Assembly: GCF_032842945.2 (NCBI RefSeq)
Contig: NZ_CP146606.1
Span: 62,001-126,000, forward strand
DNA length: 64,000 nt
DNA from: Roseovarius sp. W115
Lineage (GTDB): Bacteria > Pseudomonadota > Alphaproteobacteria > Rhodobacterales > Rhodobacteraceae
Direction of reading: 5' to 3'
Shown: positions 639 through 16,598 of the stretch, piece after piece
How positions within the stretch are numbered: position 1 is the stretch's first letter
Layout: every line of letters begins with the position of its first letter
The notes under the pieces: generated by a model
Told to the model about the DNA's origin: nothing
The model's database searches: none
What the model saw: only the letters and a program-made list of their open reading frames with translations
Translations under genes and position numbers: made by a program

Positions 639-1991
639 ATGTCAAAAACTGATCTCACACGTCGTGGGCTTCTGAAGACCGGCGCTGTCGCCGGTGCAGG
701 CGTTGCTCTGCCGACGATCTTTACGGCTCAATCCGCAGCGGCCTTCACCAACGAACCCACAGGCGGCTCCGTGACACTGGGCTTCAACGTGCCTCAAACC
801 GGCCCTTATGCTGATGAGGGTGCAGACGAACTGCGCGCTTATGAGCTGGCGGTTGAGCATCTCAATGGCGGCGGCGACGGCGGCATGATGAACACCTTCT
901 CGTCCAAAGCCCTGCAAGGCAACGGCATCCTGGGCAAGAAAGTGGAATACGTCACAGGCGACACGCAGACCAAAGCGGATGCGGCACGTGCCTCGGCCAA
1001 GTCGATGATTGAAAAAGACGGCGCCATCATGATCACCGGGGGCTCGTCCTCAGGTGTGGCCGTGGCCGTCCAGGCGCTCTGCCAAGAGGCGGGTGTTATC
1101 TTCATGGCTGGCCTCACGCACTCCAACGACACAACGGGTAAAGACCGCAAAGCCAACGGCTTCCGCCACTTCTTTAACTCATACATGTCCGGCGCCGCTC
1201 TGGCGCCCGTGCTTGCAGGCGCTTACGGCACAGACCGTAAAGCTTATCACCTGACAGCTGACTACAACTGGGGCTACACCACAGAAGAAGCGGTGAAGTC
1301 TTCAACCGAGGCCATGGGCTGGGAAACTGTTGCGGCCGTGAAAACACCGCTGACGCAAACAGACTTCTCGTCCTACATCGCGCCTGTTCTTCAGTCCGGT
1401 GCCGACACGCTGGTTCTGAACCACTACGGCGGCAACATGGTGAACTCGCTCACGAACGCGGTTCAGTTCGGACTGCGTGACAAGCAAGTCAACGGCAAAG
1501 ACTTCCAGATCATCGTTCCACTTTACTCTCGTCTGATGGCGAAGGGTGCGGGTGCAAACGTTGCTGGTATCTTTGGCTCGACAAACTGGCACTGGTCGCT
1601 GCAGGACGAAGGCTCCAAGGCATTCGTGAAATCCTTCGGCACCAAGTACGGCTTCCCACCGTCACAGGCCGCGCACACCACATATGTGCAGGCGCTGCTT
1701 TATGCGGATGCCGTGGAACGTGCCGGTTCGTTCAACCCATGTGCGGTTGTCGAAGCGCTCGAAGGCTTCGAATTTGACGGCATGGGCAACGGGCCAACAC
1801 TCTACCGTGCCGACGACCACCAGTGCTTCAAAGACGTGCTGGTTGTGAAGGGCAAGGAAAACCCAGACAGCGAATTCGACCTTCTCGAAATCGTTGAGGT
1901 GACTCCGGTTGAGCAAGTGACCTACGCGCCAGATCACCCACAAATGGGCGGTGCTGAAGCGACATTGGGCTCCTGCAACCCTGGCGCCTAA
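639..1991 (+). CDS. ABC transporter substrate-binding protein (Liv/amide type, Tat-exported)
   Basis: Periplasmic solute-binding protein of the Peripla_BP_6 (LivJ-like) family, 450 residues. The start at 639 follows AGGGAGG at a good distance and gives a twin-arginine signal (TRRGLLK at residues 7-13, hydrophobic stretch, cleavage near QSAAA); an in-frame extension upstream to 279 is not coding-like. It is first in a five-gene transporter operon (binding protein, two permeases, two ATPases) followed by acsA. The family binds amino acids, amides, urea or small carboxylates; the ligand cannot be told from sequence. Linkage to acsA and an ScfR-like regulator hints at a compound that yields acetate (inference). 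Confidence 0.9.
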   Translation: MSKTDLTRRGLLKTGAVAGAGVALPTIFTAQSAAAFTNEPTGGSVTLGFNVPQTGPYADEGADELRAYELAVEHLNGGGDGGMMNTFSSKALQGNGILGKKVEYVTGDTQTKADAARASAKSMIEKDGAIMITGGSSSGVAVAVQALCQEAGVIFMAGLTHSNDTTGKDRKANGFRHFFNSYMSGAALAPVLAGAYGTDRKAYHLTADYNWGYTTEEAVKSSTEAMGWETVAAVKTPLTQTDFSSYIAPVLQSGADTLVLNHYGGNMVNSLTNAVQFGLRDKQVNGKDFQIIVPLYSRLMAKGAGANVAGIFGSTNWHWSLQDEGSKAFVKSFGTKYGFPPSQAAHTTYVQALLYADAVERAGSFNPCAVVEALEGFEFDGMGNGPTLYRADDHQCFKDVLVVKGKENPDSEFDLLEIVEVTPVEQVTYAPDHPQMGGAEATLGSCNPGA

Positions 1992-10930: not shown

Positions 10931-11841
10931 CAGAAGCCGCCCCGGCCCAGCCTCTGCCAGAGACCCGCGTGCAAGGTTACCTTTTGGTGATCCTGGCAGG
11001 CGTGCTGTGGTCCACCGTGGGGTTGGGCATCCGGCTCATCGAGGATGCGCTTGTCTGGCAAATCCTGTTCTACCGCTCCTTTGGCCTGACAGCGCTGCTT
11101 TACATCGTCATCCGCCTGCGCACGGGCCAGAACCCTCTCACTCTGGCGCGCAAGGGCGGATGGCCCACGATGATCGGCGGCGCGTCTCTGGTCGCGGCTT
11201 ATACGGGCGGTATTTACGCCATTCAAAATACGTCCGTGGCCGATGCCATGCTGCTCTTTGCCAGCGCGCCCTTTATGACCGCTGTGCTCGCATGGATCAT
11301 CCTGGGCGAACGCGTGCGCGCACATACCTGGGTCGCCATTCTGGCGGCCTGCGGCGGCATCGGCGTCATGGTCAGCGACAGTTCTGGTGCTTCTTCCATA
11401 AGCGGCAACCTCGCGGCGCTCTTTTCGGCGCTTGGGTTTGCCGTCTTCACCATTGCCCTGCGATGGGGGCGCAATGGAGAGATGCTCCCGGCGGTGTTTG
11501 TCTCGGGCCTGATGGCGATAGTGGTGATGGGCGTAATCTGCGTGGTGCTTGGCTTGCCTTTGGCGCTGACACCCCGCGACGGCGGCATCGCGCTCTGCAT
11601 GGGGCTGTTTCAGGTGGGCGCCGGTCTGGTGCTCTACACCATCGGGTCCAAGCACGTGCCTGCCGCCGAGCTGACTCTCCTCTCTCTGGCCGAAGTGGTG
11701 CTGGGTCCGCTCTGGGTCTGGATGTTTCTTGGCGAGACCATCTCAGTGGCCACAGCCATCGGCGGCGCGATCCTGCTGGCGGCGATTGCCTTCAACGCTG
11801 CCTTGGGGATGCGACGCAAACCGCCAGTGACGTTGGTATGA
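10927..11841 (+). CDS. EamA/DMT family transporter
   Basis: 304-residue inner-membrane protein, start GTG at 10927 inside a GTGA overlap with the previous gene. It has two EamA repeats: one around LLFASAPFMTAVLAWIILGERV, the other ending LSLAEVVLGPLWVWMFLGETI. The tandem arrangement of two DMT genes suggests a heteromeric pair or two exporters sharing a signal; this is inference and the substrate is unknown. Confidence 0.9.
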   Translation: MTEAAPAQPLPETRVQGYLLVILAGVLWSTVGLGIRLIEDALVWQILFYRSFGLTALLYIVIRLRTGQNPLTLARKGGWPTMIGGASLVAAYTGGIYAIQNTSVADAMLLFASAPFMTAVLAWIILGERVRAHTWVAILAACGGIGVMVSDSSGASSISGNLAALFSALGFAVFTIALRWGRNGEMLPAVFVSGLMAIVVMGVICVVLGLPLALTPRDGGIALCMGLFQVGAGLVLYTIGSKHVPAAELTLLSLAEVVLGPLWVWMFLGETISVATAIGGAILLAAIAFNAALGMRRKPPVTLV

Positions 11842-11885
11842 AACCAATTAGTTTCATCTCACCAAAAGCACGGTTTACTCTCACT

Positions 11886-11949
11886 GTCATCCTCGTGCTT
11901 GACCCGAGGACCCCTTGACCCAGAGATCCCCGATCAAGTCCGGGATGAC
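11886..11949. repeat. 64-bp palindromic repeat element
   Basis: Outer arms GTCATCC (11886-11892) and GGATGAC (11943-11949) enclose TCCTCG/CGAGGA and GATCCCCGATC. The core GATCAAGTCCGGGATGAC resembles dispersed palindromes common in alphaproteobacterial genomes (from memory). It lies between two convergent genes, where it may act as a bidirectional terminator. Confidence 0.6.
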
Positions 11950-11958
11950 GCTTGTTTC

Positions 11959-12423
11959 TCACCCTCGTCCGCGATACCCCGGCACGCCCTGATCCGGGAT
12001 CCAGACACCCTTGGGCATCTCGCCTGTCTGCCAGAACACATCAATCGGAATGCCCCCGCGCGGGTACCAGTAGCCGCCGATGCGTAGCCATTGTGGCTCT
12101 AGGAACTCCACCAGACGCCGGGCGATGCTCACCGTGCAGTCCTCGTGAAAAGCACCATGATTTCGGAAACTTGTGAGGTAAAGCTTCAGCGATTTACTCT
12201 CCACCAACCACTGGCCCGGCACGTAGTCTATCACCAGATGCGCAAAATCGGGCTGGCCGGTCATGGGGCAGAGCGACGTGAACTCAGGTGCCGTGAACCG
12301 CACATTGTAGGCCACATCCGCCTGCGGGTTTTCCACGCGTTCCAGCTCGGCCTCATCGGGGCTTTGCGGCACCACAGTGGCGCCGCCCAGCTGTTTTAGG
12401 TCCTTATAGATATTGTCGGCCAT
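11959..12423 (-). CDS. queF: 7-cyano-7-deazaguanine reductase QueF (preQ1 synthesis)
   Basis: Reduces preQ0 to preQ1 with NADPH, the last step before transfer to tRNA. 154 residues from ATG 12423 (strong GGGAGG ribosome site; a TTG at 12438 would add five residues), the short type I QueF size. The catalytic cysteine is C52 in [12 protein letters not shown], and the NADPH/substrate motif [20 protein letters not shown] follows. It is last in the queC-queD-queE-queF operon, starting 11 bases after the queE stop. Confidence 0.96.
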
Positions 12424-12434
12424 CTGATCCTCCC

Positions 12435-13157
12435 TCAAACCCCGCGCTTATTGCCCCAAAGGCTGACATGCAGCTGCGGCAGAACACGGGCGTCATACCA
12501 TTTTTCTTCCGTGACACGATCCACCAGCCACCGCATCCGCGCATCAAGCCCGGCCTGATCTACGACCGCGCTGTCATCTGCGGGGGGCGGCGTGTGATTA
12601 CCCGGTTGCAGATAGACCGGCAGCTGCGGAAACCGTGCCGCCGCGTCCCGGGCATAGGCAAAATCGGCTTCGTTGAAGACCACGATCTTGAGCACCGTCT
12701 GCGTGCCCTGCCCGGCCTCTACACATTCGGCCACCAGACCCCAGTTCGTCTCCATCCCCGACGACGGCGGTTTGGGCGATAGCACCAGCATATCCAGCGC
12801 CTCAAACCAGTCCTTGACCACGCTGCCTTGGGTTTCCATGGCAAAGTAGTACCCCTGCCTCTGCCCCAGACGGATCAACTCAGCCAAGGGTTGGATCGCC
12901 GGATTGCCGCCAGAAAGCGTCACAAGAATGGGCTTGCCACCCGAAAGCTGTGCCACGTCTTCCATCACCGCCTGCGCCGTCATGGGAGCCCATGTGTCGC
13001 GATAGTCATTGTCCACCGCATGCATGCTGTCACACCAGCTGCAGCGAAAATCGCAGCCGCCCGTACGGACGAACACAGTCGGTTGCCCGATCAAGGCGCC
13101 CTCGCCCTGGATCGTCGGTCCGAAAATCTCGGAGACGCGGATGCGGGTGTCGCTCAC
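12435..13157 (-). CDS. queE: 7-carboxy-7-deazaguanine synthase QueE (radical SAM)
   Basis: Radical SAM enzyme that contracts 6-carboxytetrahydropterin to 7-carboxy-7-deazaguanine. 240 residues. The iron-sulfur motif is C35-x3-C39-x2-C42 (CDFRCSWC), preceded by the family N-terminus [40 protein letters not shown] is the SAM-binding block. Its start overlaps the queD stop by 4 bases, showing translational coupling within the operon. Confidence 0.96.
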
Positions 13158-13510
13158 GGTTTGTACTCAGCCCAGGTCTTGGGCGTCTCGCTAACCCGAG
13201 CCGCGCTCACCTCAGGCCAGCGGGCTTTGCACCAATCATAGAAATGCTTGGCCATGCGTTCCGCCGTCACCCCGTCATCGCCCAGAATGTCATTGAGATG
13301 CCGGTGATCGAGCGTATCGTCGATGTAGCGCTTCAGCTCGGCCAGATCGAGATAATCGCGCACAAAGCCATGGGCGTTCAAATCCTCAGCCCTCATCTCA
13401 ATCTCAACGATGTAGTTATGTCCATGCAGCCGCGCGCATTGGTGATCTTCTGGCAGGCCATGCAGTTGATGACTGGCCGAGAAGTGGAATTCCTTGGTGA
13501 TCCGGTACAT
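13154..13510 (-). CDS. queD: 6-carboxy-5,6,7,8-tetrahydropterin synthase QueD
   Basis: Converts dihydroneopterin triphosphate to 6-carboxytetrahydropterin. 118 residues from ATG 13510. Zinc ligands H14, H29 and H31 and the catalytic cysteine C25 are visible ([10 protein letters not shown] and CARLHGHNY). The chosen start overlaps the queC stop as TGATG and removes a 39-residue non-homologous extension. It is second in the operon. Confidence 0.95.
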
Positions 13511-14202
13511 CACGCAACCCCCACGGCAGATTTCCAGAACTCGGTGTCGGCGTATTCGGTTGGATCTGCGACCCCGGCCAGGTGAAACGCCTCGCGCCGC
13601 TCCACACAGGTGCCACAGCGTCCACAATGCACTTCACCGCCCTTATAACAGGACCAGGTCTCGGCAAAGGGCGTGCCGTGCCGCGCGCCTTCGGTGACGA
13701 TGTCGGCTTTGCTGATCTCAACAAAAGGCGTGTAGAGCTTGATCTCGGCCACACCTTCCAGCGCATGATCCTGCATGGCCTGAAACGCGTTTATGAAATC
13801 GGGTCGGCAGTCGGGATAGATGAAATGATCCCCGCCATGCACCGCTGCCGCAACAGCGTCTGCCTTTTCTGCGGCGGCCATGCCAAAGGCGATGGTCAGC
13901 ATGATTGCGTTGCGGTTGGGCACGATGGTGAGCTTCATCGTGTCTTCGGCGTAATGGCCATCGGGCACATCGACATCGTCGGTCAAAGCAGAGCCGCTCA
14001 GGGCTGCACCCACATTCGCAATATCCACCACCTTATGCGGCACGCCAAGGCGCTCAGCACAAGCCGCGGCATACGCGACTTCCTTCACATGCCGCTGGCC
14101 ATAGTCGAACGAGAGAAGCCCGCGCAAATTCTGCTCCGCCGCCACCTTGTGGACCAGCGACACGGAATCAAGCCCGCCAGAGCAGATCACAATCGTATCC
14201 AT
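13510..14202 (-). CDS. queC: 7-cyano-7-deazaguanine synthase QueC
   Basis: ATP-dependent conversion of 7-carboxy-7-deazaguanine to preQ0. 230 residues, normal for QueC. The PP-loop SGGLDS is at residues 8-13 and the C-terminal zinc motif (C-x7-8-C-x2-C-x2-C; CYKGGEVHCGRCGTC) is complete. It is the first queuosine gene and its ribosome site (AAGGA at 14215-14211) lies inside a preQ1-I-like aptamer, so its translation and, by coupling, queD-queE-queF are probably repressed by preQ1. Confidence 0.97.
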   Translation of the reverse strand: MDTIVICSGGLDSVSLVHKVAAEQNLRGLLSFDYGQRHVKEVAYAAACAERLGVPHKVVDIANVGAALSGSALTDDVDVPDGHYAEDTMKLTIVPNRNAIMLTIAFGMAAAEKADAVAAAVHGGDHFIYPDCRPDFINAFQAMQDHALEGVAEIKLYTPFVEISKADIVTEGARHGTPFAETWSCYKGGEVHCGRCGTCVERREAFHLAGVADPTEYADTEFWKSAVGVA

Positions 14203-14208
14203 TGATTT

Positions 14209-14246
14209 GGTCCTTGTTTTTTAATGCGGGTAGGCTGCGACCGCAG
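14209..14246 (-). promoter_or_regulatory. preQ1-I riboswitch (translational type)
   Basis: In the 49-bp gap before queC the minus strand reads CTGCGGTCGCAGCCTACCC, then GCATTAAAAAACAAGGA. A P1 stem TGCGG (14245-14241) pairs with CCGCA (14229-14225) around a short loop. The A-rich tail ends in the Shine-Dalgarno AAGGA, so P2 pseudoknot formation would hide it. Stem, loop (GGTCGCAG), tail (AAAACAAGG) and spacing match the preQ1-I class known from Thermoanaerobacter (recalled from the literature). It lies in front of preQ1 genes, as expected for feedback control. Confidence 0.88.
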
Positions 14247-14251
14247 GGCGG

Positions 14252-15640
14252 CTATGTAGCGGTCTCTGGGTCCTCTTGCAAGACCCGCGCGCCCACATTG
14301 CGCCCCGACCAGCCCCAGAACCGCACCAGGAGCAGCACCGCCGCCAAGGCCAACCCAACAGCCAGACCCAGCCAGATGCCAACGCCGCCCCATCCCCATG
14401 TGAAGCCAAAGAGATAAGAGACGGGCACGCCCACAATCCAGTAGCTGATCGTGGCGATGATCATCGGTGCGCGCGTGTCCTGCACCCCGCGCAACAGGCC
14501 CAGTGCCATGACCTGCCCTCCGTCCATCAGCTGAAAGAGCGCCGCCGCCGCCAGAAGGCCTACCCCCACGCCAATCACCGCGGCGCGGTCTGGCTCATCG
14601 GGATCTAGGAAAAGCGAGATGAGCGGTTCTGGCATCACCAGAAGGATCACCACGGTGATCAGTGCAAAAGCCATCGACAGGCCCAGAACCACCTTGGCCC
14701 CATCACGCAGTCCCGGTCCGTCCCCACGCCCAAAGGCTTGGCCAGTGCGCACCGTGGCCGCGTTGGAGAGACCCAGATGCACCATGAACGTGACCGAGGC
14801 GACTTGCATCGCAATGCCGTGCGCGGCCAGTGGGATGGTCCCCAACCAGCCCATCATGAGTGTTGAGGCCGCGAAGAGACCAGTCTCGGCCAGGCTTGTC
14901 ATCCCAATCGGCCAGCCGAGGCGAAAGACCTGTCCCAGTGCCTCCCAGTCCGGGCGCCAGATGCGGGTGAAAAGCGCATGTTCCGGCTCCACGCGCGTGG
15001 CATAGATGGCCAGAACAATGAAAGAGACTGTGGTGGTGATCAATGAGGCCAGTGCGGCCCCGCGTACACCCAATTCCGGCGCGCCCCAGTTGCCAAAGAT
15101 GAAGGCGTAGTTGACCAACACGTTCAGCCCCACAGCGCCGACCGTCACCCACAGCACGATCTGCGTGCGCTCCAGCGCGGCGAGATAGGATTTCAGCACC
15201 ATCACCAGAAGCGACGGGATCAGCGCAAGGCCAACCAGTTCGGCATAGTCCCCCGCCAAGGCGGACACGCCCGTATCCTGCCCCATGGACACGAAGATGG
15301 GTTCGGCAAACAGCATGATCGGCATCACCAGTGCTGCAAACATCATCGAGGCCCAGCCGCCCATGCGCGCCACGCGGCGGATTTGGGTTTCATCCCCCGA
15401 CGCCGCGGCGGCGGCTACCATCGGCATCACCGCCCAGGCAAAACCGGATCCAACCAGAAAGAGCGTATAAAACAGCGTCCCGCCCAGCACTTCGGCGGCC
15501 AGCGCCTCGACCGAGTACCAGCCCAGCATCACCGCATCGGTGAGCGTGATGGCCATCTGCGCCACATGGCTGCCCACCAAGGGCAGGCCCAGCTTGAGCG
15601 TTGCGCGCGCATGTTGGCTATATGTGAGGCGAGCTTGCAT
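14252..15640 (-). CDS. MATE family efflux transporter (NorM-like)
   Basis: 462-residue inner-membrane multidrug/toxin exporter with twelve predicted segments in two MatE halves. The start region LGLPLVGSHVAQMAITLTDAVMLGWYSVEALAA is the typical MatE N-terminus. It uses a Na+ or H+ gradient in known members. It ends 49 bases before queC in the same direction, so it is probably on the same transcript, with the riboswitch in the gap acting only on queC. A direct role in queuosine metabolism is not indicated. Confidence 0.93.
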   Translation of the reverse strand: MQARLTYSQHARATLKLGLPLVGSHVAQMAITLTDAVMLGWYSVEALAAEVLGGTLFYTLFLVGSGFAWAVMPMVAAAAASGDETQIRRVARMGGWASMMFAALVMPIMLFAEPIFVSMGQDTGVSALAGDYAELVGLALIPSLLVMVLKSYLAALERTQIVLWVTVGAVGLNVLVNYAFIFGNWGAPELGVRGAALASLITTTVSFIVLAIYATRVEPEHALFTRIWRPDWEALGQVFRLGWPIGMTSLAETGLFAASTLMMGWLGTIPLAAHGIAMQVASVTFMVHLGLSNAATVRTGQAFGRGDGPGLRDGAKVVLGLSMAFALITVVILLVMPEPLISLFLDPDEPDRAAVIGVGVGLLAAAALFQLMDGGQVMALGLLRGVQDTRAPMIIATISYWIVGVPVSYLFGFTWGWGGVGIWLGLAVGLALAAVLLLVRFWGWSGRNVGARVLQEDPETAT

Positions 15641-15692
15641 AGATCAGCCCTAGAGCCGCGCTGTCATCGGCGCAAGAAGATTACTGTGCGGA

Positions 15693-16598
15693 CTAAAGCG
15701 TGCGCATCATCAGTTGCAAAGAGACGATGGCCACCAGCGCGCCTGCAGCCATCTCTACCAGCGGCAGAGCGCGCGGAATGCGCCCGGATGTGGCCAATCT
15801 TGCCAGCAGACCATCGCGCAAGGTGACTGACGCGATGGCGACGGCCAAGGTGACGCTGGCCGTGCCCAAGCCCATGATGAACGCGCCGACGACACCTGCC
15901 ATGCCGATACCAAGCTGAACCGTCAGGATAAGCAGGAACAGCGCCCCGGTGCAGGGACGGATGGCGATGGCCCCAATCAACACGAGCATATCGCGCAGCG
16001 TGCGCGCCTGAGCAACATGTTCTGCATCCGGTGCATGGCTGTGCCCGCAAGTGTGACAGACGTGATCGTCATGGTGATCATGGTGATCATGGTGATGCGG
16101 CTTGCGCGCTTGCCGCCAGTGACGCAACCCGCGCAACAAAAGCCACATGCCCACGGCTGCAATCGCGGCATAACTGGCAGGTGCCAGCCATCTGTCTGAG
16201 ACATCCGTCATCGCGGTGCGCGACAGCCCCAGGATGAACACCCCGGCATAGACCAGCGCCACAGCAACGGCGGCTTGCGCGAGGCTGGAGATCACGGCGA
16301 TCAGGCTCAAACGGGTCAAAGGCACCTGCGCGCCCAGGCCGTACCCGCCGATCAACAGCTTGCCATGCCCCGGCCCCGCCGCGTGAAAAAACCCATAGGC
16401 GAAACACAAGCCCCAAAGCCCGGCGAGCGCGGCGCTGTTGCCCGCGCGCAGCTCTTGCAGATAGCCCGCCATGGCGTTCTGCACCCGTTCCTGCCCAGCG
16501 GTTGCCCAGCTCAGGATGTGGTCCGATCCGCCCATGCCCCAGAGCCAGACCGCAAGACCAACCACCAGAATTGCGCCCCCCGTCACGACGTGGCGCAT
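15693..16598 (-). CDS. NicO-family nickel/cobalt (or zinc) transporter with His-rich loop
   Basis: 301-residue inner-membrane protein of the NicO/RcnA superfamily. Family blocks are GFFHAAGPGHGKLLIGGY (H and G-rich motif in an early segment) and IAIRPCTGALFLLILTVQLG. A cytoplasmic loop near residue 170-200 is very rich in histidine and aspartate and has CHTCGHSH, a likely metal-binding stretch. It overlaps the preceding DUF1007 gene by 16 bases; the two are commonly paired. Whether it imports or exports, and which metal, is not decided by the sequence. Confidence 0.88.
   Translation of the reverse strand: MRHVVTGGAILVVGLAVWLWGMGGSDHILSWATAGQERVQNAMAGYLQELRAGNSAALAGLWGLCFAYGFFHAAGPGHGKLLIGGYGLGAQVPLTRLSLIAVISSLAQAAVAVALVYAGVFILGLSRTAMTDVSDRWLAPASYAAIAAVGMWLLLRGLRHWRQARKPHHHDHHDHHDDHVCHTCGHSHAPDAEHVAQARTLRDMLVLIGAIAIRPCTGALFLLILTVQLGIGMAGVVGAFIMGLGTASVTLAVAIASVTLRDGLLARLATSGRIPRALPLVEMAAGALVAIVSLQLMMRTL

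Follow-up and report, generated by a model that had tools for sequence, protein, structure and literature searches.

The window analyzed here is a 64,000-nucleotide stretch of the Roseovarius sp. W115 genome (contig NZ_CP146606.1, positions 62,001 to 126,000). On its minus strand it carries queC, queD, queE, and queF, preceded by a gene for a MATE family exporter; the identities of QueC, QueD, QueE, QueF-II, and MATE rest on NCBIfam models scoring above cut-off. Between the MATE stop codon (14254-14252) and the queC ATG (14202) lies a gap of 49 nt, and 35 nt of it are filled by a class-I preQ1 aptamer at 14211-14245 (minus strand), whose letters are those given in a first-pass annotation of this DNA. 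The source genome encodes tgt elsewhere and has no match at E 0.001 to yhhQ (PF02592), the preQ0/preQ1 importer. The features are listed below. Tte denotes Thermoanaerobacter tengcongensis, and alignment A2 and model R1 comprise 35 distinct queC leader rows, two of 37 (L037 and L059) having been left out for alignment.

14252..15640, minus strand: MATE family exporter gene, a neighbor only (TIGR00797 above cut-off)
14211..14245, minus strand: preQ1-I (type II-like) aptamer, whole (RF00522 match at 14208-14250; 53.8 bits with R1, which includes L029, a leader with identical aptamer letters)
14241..14245, minus strand: P1 5' strand UGCGG (from the letters; P1 covaries in A2; G14241 corresponds to Tte G5)
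14235..14240, minus strand: L1 / P2 5' strand UCGCAG (from the letters; identical to Tte U6-G11)
14231..14234, minus strand: L2 CCUA (from the letters)
14230, minus strand: specificity cytosine, the expected preQ1 partner (Tte C15; C in 35 of 35 A2 rows)
14225..14229, minus strand: P1 3' strand CCGCA (from the letters; P1 covaries in A2)
14217..14224, minus strand: L3 A-rich tail UUAAAAAA (A14217 is the counterpart of Tte A29; the final four As do not vary in A2)
14211..14216, minus strand: P2 3' strand and Shine-Dalgarno CAAGGA (from the letters; ends 8 nt before the queC ATG)
13510..14202, minus strand: queC (TIGR00364, 177 bits, above cut-off; ATG 8 nt 3' of the Shine-Dalgarno)
13154..13513, minus strand: queD (TIGR03367 above cut-off; start ATG at 13510, within a TGATG shared with the queC stop)
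12435..13157, minus strand: queE (TIGR03365 above cut-off; start GTG at 13157, within a GTGA shared with the queD stop)
11959..12423, minus strand: queF (QueF-II; TIGR03139 above cut-off for the ORF 11959-12438)

The stem TGCGG/CCGCA and the A-rich tail doubling as Shine-Dalgarno are present as annotated. The letters of the annotated loop, GGTCGCAG, are also correct; its extent is not, since it includes the last two bases of P1. When 701 nt around the element were searched against all Rfam families, RF00522 (PreQ1) matched at 32.6 bits (E 1e-4), aligning over model positions 1-45 of 45 with no non-standard pair, a 5-pair P1, and an A-rich 3' tail. The Infernal check proposed in the annotation thus returned a full-length match, at a score below the gathering score of 39; across the whole window, there are no Rfam matches at gathering scores. 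The element is nevertheless the best RF00522 place in the entire source genome (3.7 Mb, 99% complete; E 1.3e-4), with the runner-up at 16.6 bits. In a search of 13900-14600 at E 10, RF00522 was the only preQ1 family matched, and the 35-nt element does not fit preQ1-II or preQ1-III, which have another fold and are about twice its size or larger. As the element and its tested relatives fall below the curated Rfam score, we call it an alphaproteobacterial variant of preQ1-I.

The published aptamer most like the window element is Tte preQ1-I type II (sequence in the available text of PMC10639078). Both have a 5-pair P1, the L1 sequence UCGCAG, AC before the P1 3' strand, and an A-rich tail that ends in CAAGG and holds the Shine-Dalgarno. 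They differ in L2 (4 nt; 3 nt in Tte) and L3 (8 nt; 9 nt in Tte), and the wider queC set departs further, with a 4-bp P1 and a 6-nt L3 in 50 of 80 rows. The types of preQ1-I are defined in the available portions of PMC11625349 and PMC10622847, the former separating them by AC or UC directly 5' of the P1 3' strand; here we find AC (A14231, C14230). The putative ligand-contacting bases are likewise those of Tte (pocket contacts from the available portions of PMC11625349 and PMC10622847). A Tte-like H-type pseudoknot, P2, between L1 and the tail is possible, with C14216-G14235 and G14213-C14237 as the predicted pairs; its bases are invariant in the queC set and so uninformative for covariation. 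P1 is exactly the minimum-energy fold of the element, yet its folding energy is unexceptional against shuffles (z = 0.50, 52 nt). This is no surprise with a stem of only five pairs and a pseudoknot that is invisible to the folding program. Sequence, place, and covariation identify the element as a preQ1-I riboswitch resembling type II, with a function predicted from these features.

We put at about 0.9 the probability that the element is a class-I preQ1 riboswitch that turns translation OFF; ligand, direction of control, coupling, and P2 pairs are predictions. At low preQ1, the P1 hairpin would form alone, leaving the tail AAAAAACAAGGA free, and ribosomes would start queC. Plentiful preQ1 would pair with C14230 beneath a ceiling of C14239, G14235, and C14216. 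In the bound form, the A-rich tail would dock in the groove of P1, and P2 would take up the first part of the Shine-Dalgarno, so that queC would not be started. Given the overlapping stop and start codons, one switched Shine-Dalgarno could govern queC, queD, and queE by coupling, and expression of queD and queE would be expected to fall with that of queC. A GGGAGGA at 12434-12428, 3' of the queE stop, resembles a Shine-Dalgarno of queF's own, and queF may be less affected.

Control at the level of transcription is the mode of the Bsu preQ1-I riboswitch (available text of PMC11625349). We consider attenuation very improbable at queC, where the Shine-Dalgarno lies within the aptamer, 8 nt from the ATG. 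Furthermore, in a scan of 11700-15900, minus-strand terminator-like sites occur only within the MATE gene (14434-14419), with none at or 3' of the aptamer; the same crude scan found no promoter-like site on the minus strand. A somewhat less remote alternative to preQ1 sensing, still unlikely, is that the same fold responds in the cell to preQ0, or to both compounds, and so senses the pathway one step earlier. QueC makes preQ0, and the Tte type II aptamer binds it with a KD of 35 nM, 17-fold more weakly than preQ1 (available text of PMC10622847). However, the known class-I types II and III prefer preQ1 (PMC10622847 and PMC11625349, as far as their available text goes), and queF of the same operon converts preQ0.

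The leader of queC is strongly conserved. Among the best 80 of 476 queC relatives from a scan of named genomes, 79 leaders carry the core GGUCGC[AG]GCC(Y)..ACCC followed by an ACA(A)GG tail directly 5' of the start codon, the exception being L100. The first-pass annotation had suggested looking for conservation in related queC leaders, and this is what we find. It had also named a subthreshold score combined with a lack of conservation as grounds for abandoning the aptamer; only the low score is observed. Leaders with the element occur in Roseovarius, Leisingera, Thioclava, and Salipiger, and also in Mesorhizobium, Rhizobium, Sinorhizobium, Agrobacterium, and Phyllobacterium. A queC (exsB) mutant of Sinorhizobium meliloti is impaired in symbiosis (available text of PMC3568095).

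Sizes of P1 and L3 vary among the 79 loci and the window: 4 bp and 6 nt in 50, 5 and 8 in 21, 6 and 7 in five, and other combinations in four. The window element belongs to the longer 5/8 kind. Counted as distinct sequences, with loci from the genome sweeps added, the more compact 4/6 form of about 30 nt accounts for 13 of 48 and the 5/8 form for 17 of 48. The compact form is therefore common by locus and not by sequence. One Roseovarius queC leader (L037, 4954-4992) has a doubled tail, AAAACAAAACAAGG. A coupling between P1 length and tail length was reduced to a remark: it is positive across the 48 distinct queC leaders (rho 0.45, reached by 16 of 20,000 permutations that ignore kinship) and absent across 61 distinct yhhQ leaders (rho 0.02).

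Within A2, P1 position 4-23 is C-G in 20 rows and G-C in 15, and changes only with compensation. The outermost pair, 3-24, takes five standard types across 17 rows and is unpaired in 18 of 35. The covariation score of the alignment is 0.185, compared with 0.062 after shuffling and at most 0.030 after sliding. The P2 columns do not vary across the 35 rows, so they carry no covariation signal for the pseudoknot. Positions equivalent to Tte G5, U6, C7, G11, C15, C16, A29, and C30 are invariant in 35 of 35 rows; this invariance is inflated, as the rows were chosen by the core pattern, and the unpicked figure is the 79 of 80, itself drawn from the 80 closest queC genes only. Such high sequence conservation adjoining a start codon could also mark a leader that senses no metabolite and serves instead to bind a protein or to recruit ribosomes with unusual strength. 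We give this reading very little credence: the known preQ1 contacts are among the conserved bases, position 4-23 changes only with compensation, the Rfam match is independent, and the genes behind strong matches are those of the preQ1 pathway.

The annotation had described the placement inside a transcript led by a MATE gene as unusual, with control of the que genes only. The element does lie in the gap between the two genes, and the remark is weakened by the relatives: just 7 of the 80 loci have a MATE gene upstream. Of these seven, five are named Roseovarius, and two (L035 and L044) are Rhodobacteraceae bins. Six of the 80 loci have less than 1.5 kb of contig upstream, L035 being both one of these six and one of the seven with MATE. 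We consider the MATE gene incidental and dropped it as a part of the system. Control restricted to the que genes would fit an aptamer 3' of the MATE stop codon. We also dropped an anti-aptamer stem between the MATE end GACCGC and the aptamer GCGGUC (91-nt fold), the idea being that ribosomes translating MATE might free the aptamer; in 81 leaders, the length of such stems did not exceed that obtained with shuffled upstream sequence (5.57 compared with 5.52). Next to the MATE gene, 15693-16598 (minus strand) gives a weak nickel/cobalt-efflux match, below cut-off, and encodes a histidine-rich stretch, HHHDHHDHHDDH.

As the named-genome scan kept only the closest queC genes, we ran R1 over unselected genomes; sweeps of more than 40 genomes used stricter filters, and weak matches can be lost. 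Among 295 genomes of the family, R1 matches 26 at E 0.05, 25 of them scoring at least 44.6 bits and the last (G195) 24.5 bits. Twenty-four of the 25 strong matches stand directly before queC and one before queF (G047). queC occurs in 29 of the 295 genomes, and 24 of these have a strong R1 match (Fisher's test, P = 2.5e-29); the other five (G054, G122, G168, G259, and G270) have no R1 match. In the class, R1 matches 12 of 385 genomes at E 0.1. Eight of these score at least 33.5 bits, all before queC, and four score 24.1 bits or less, none before queC. Two groups of queC genes are seen in the class, one close (16 genomes, 51-100% identity) and one distant (39 genomes, 31-45% identity), with strong R1 matches in 8 of 16 and 0 of 39, respectively (Fisher's test, P = 1.1e-5). 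Since strong matches are confined to the close group, the switch belongs to one queC lineage; the five family genomes and eight close-group class genomes with queC and no R1 match indicate that this control is not universal. The annotated preQ1-I aptamer at the queC ribosome site is therefore upheld by the Rfam match (E 1e-4), its occurrence in 79 of 80 relatives, P1 covariation, and the position of 24 of 25 strong matches.

The match before queF (L139, in G047) is an intact queC-type aptamer 59 nt upstream of the gene, in a genome with no queC match. An AAAGG lies closer to the queF start than the aptamer does, and the switch may have been left behind when a queC was lost. Two places with the aptamer turned up in a pattern scan of viral contigs. 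One is beside an integrase-like frame and queC (named by eye). The other, L176, is on a 6.3-kb contig with frames resembling, by eye, nrdA, nrdB, queE, queD, and queC, and may be bacterial. Phage queC genes number 327 records, all below 60% identity.

RF00522 recovers few of these elements. At E 0.5, it reaches 8 of the 25 family genomes with strong R1 matches, and it exceeds its cut-off in none of the 295. Rfam was run on 20 of the 31 strong-R1 loci: a single locus matched at E 0.5, with 30.4 bits, and none reached the gathering score. The probable reason for these misses is that the Rfam model is built for a P1 and a tail of greater length. In all, RF00522 matches 22 family genomes at E 0.5: eight at a real queC place, one (G211) before yhhQ, and the remainder weakly, at places where we saw no queC or yhhQ gene by eye.

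One weak RF00522 match (L021) preceded a YhhQ gene (TIGR00697 above cut-off), so we searched the leaders of yhhQ, which is present (PF02592) in 276 of the 295 family genomes. L021 itself (1481-1535, minus strand; 20.6 bits) has a longer loop-to-Shine-Dalgarno match, UUCCG with CGGAA. We collected 90 yhhQ leaders, 30 from the best matches and 60 among the matches listed (L178-L207 and L236-L295). A 28-nt preQ1-I-like pseudoknot lies right before the yhhQ start in 79 of the 90 by a strict pattern, CAAG-UC-UCCG-CNAC-CUUG-NN-AAAA-CGGA or its like; the pattern required CCG, AC, and the A-run, so the invariance of those letters is partly by choice. By eye, eight more are near variants (L182, L186, L189, L193, L240, L270, L276, and L292); the element is absent from L178 and L285 and incomplete in L279. 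One of the near variants, L193 (G047), has G at the specificity position and still scores 35 bits with R2, a model of the yhhQ element.

The yhhQ element has the layout of the queC element, with the same U6, specificity C, and A before P2, and with a Watson-Crick P2. P1 is CAAG/CUUG, with CAUG/CAUG and CGAG/CUUG as variants. In the 79 leaders, the outer P2 pair is U-A in 43, C-G in 9, A-U in 1, G-A or G-G in 20, and something else in 6. It is Watson-Crick in 38 of 61 distinct leaders against a shuffled mean of 24.5, a count reached by none of 20,000 shuffles that ignore kinship. In alignment A4 (48 of the 61 rows, 13 of other lengths or poorly aligned having been left out), this loop-to-Shine-Dalgarno pair covaries (covariation score 0.113, compared with at most 0.025 after sliding). 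P2 cells are paired in 92.2% of cases, as in type III, and 15 of the 48 rows lack the outer pair. Where type III has a strongly conserved UU after P1, the first U is invariant and is followed by C in 40, T in 4, A in 2, and G in 2 of the 48.

R2 was tested on 40 genomes outside its building set. At 36.9 bits or more, it matched 14 of 21 genomes with yhhQ and 0 of 19 without (Fisher's test, P = 5.5e-6). All 14 strong matches precede yhhQ, and two weaker matches, of 27.2 and 21.0 bits, likewise stand before it; in the other five yhhQ genomes, R2 found no element. Three of the 19 genomes without yhhQ give weak matches at E 0.1, none above 22.6 bits. RF00522 gave no match at E 2 in the 20 yhhQ loci searched, out of a set of 30.

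These elements resemble the Escherichia coli type III aptamer, which also precedes yhhQ, in having AC before P1, an A-run, and a C-rich loop strand able to pair fully with the Shine-Dalgarno. They differ from it in U then mostly C after P1 (UU in E. coli), in P2 being UCCG/CGGA, and in usually having 2 nt before AAAA instead of the 8-nt E. coli linker GGUUAAUC (available text of PMC10622847). According to the same text, type III is found almost only in gamma-proteobacteria, before yhhQ, and a 30-nt E. coli construct, its linker shortened for crystals, binds preQ1 at 52 nM, which makes lengths of 28 to 30 nt physically reasonable. yhhQ is under various preQ1 riboswitch classes in different bacteria (available text of PMC5372724). 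A survey that included 15 Rhodobacterales and 15 Rhizobiales genomes placed preQ1 riboswitches mostly in Firmicutes and in one or two proteobacterial lineages (available text of PMC3766115). Our literature search, with most subscription journals outside its reach, found no titles or abstracts describing these queC and yhhQ elements.

Family genomes without yhhQ have queC in 10 of 19 cases, compared with 19 of 276 among those with yhhQ (Fisher's test, P = 9e-7). In this family sample, import is the rule and synthesis the exception, and one kind of switch apparently controls both; the window's genome belongs with those that synthesize. On balance, we favor the view that Alphaproteobacteria have an unrecognized compact branch of preQ1-I, with natural aptamers of about 28 nt (yhhQ) and 30 nt (queC), on both routes to preQ1: most Rhodobacteraceae would switch the importer YhhQ in this way, and a minority, the window's genome included, would instead rely on the de novo operon, controlled by a switch of this kind. 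McCown 2014 reportedly defined type III and set up the preQ1-I types, with type counts. The alphaproteobacterial queC form may be within its type II list; new here is the compact branch, on queC and most of all on yhhQ. If this view is correct, the yhhQ form would rank with the smallest aptamers of natural riboswitches, close in size to the 30-nt E. coli construct, and a large bacterial class would have much of its queuosine supply under an RNA control missed by the standard library. It would also yield natural aptamers close to the lower size limit of riboswitches and suited at once to structural studies, as well as groups of species in which one kind of sensor governs either the synthesis or the import of the same molecule.

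Just 3' of yhhQ, on the strand of the gene, 18 of 20 yhhQ loci match CC2171 (RF01867, a Caulobacter sRNA family), for example at L202 1185-1363 (minus strand) and L184 2101-2274 (plus strand); the best of these matches reaches 46 bits, below the gathering score of 75. The next frame after yhhQ and CC2171 has a GGQ motif in four of five cases examined and is presumably ArfB-like.
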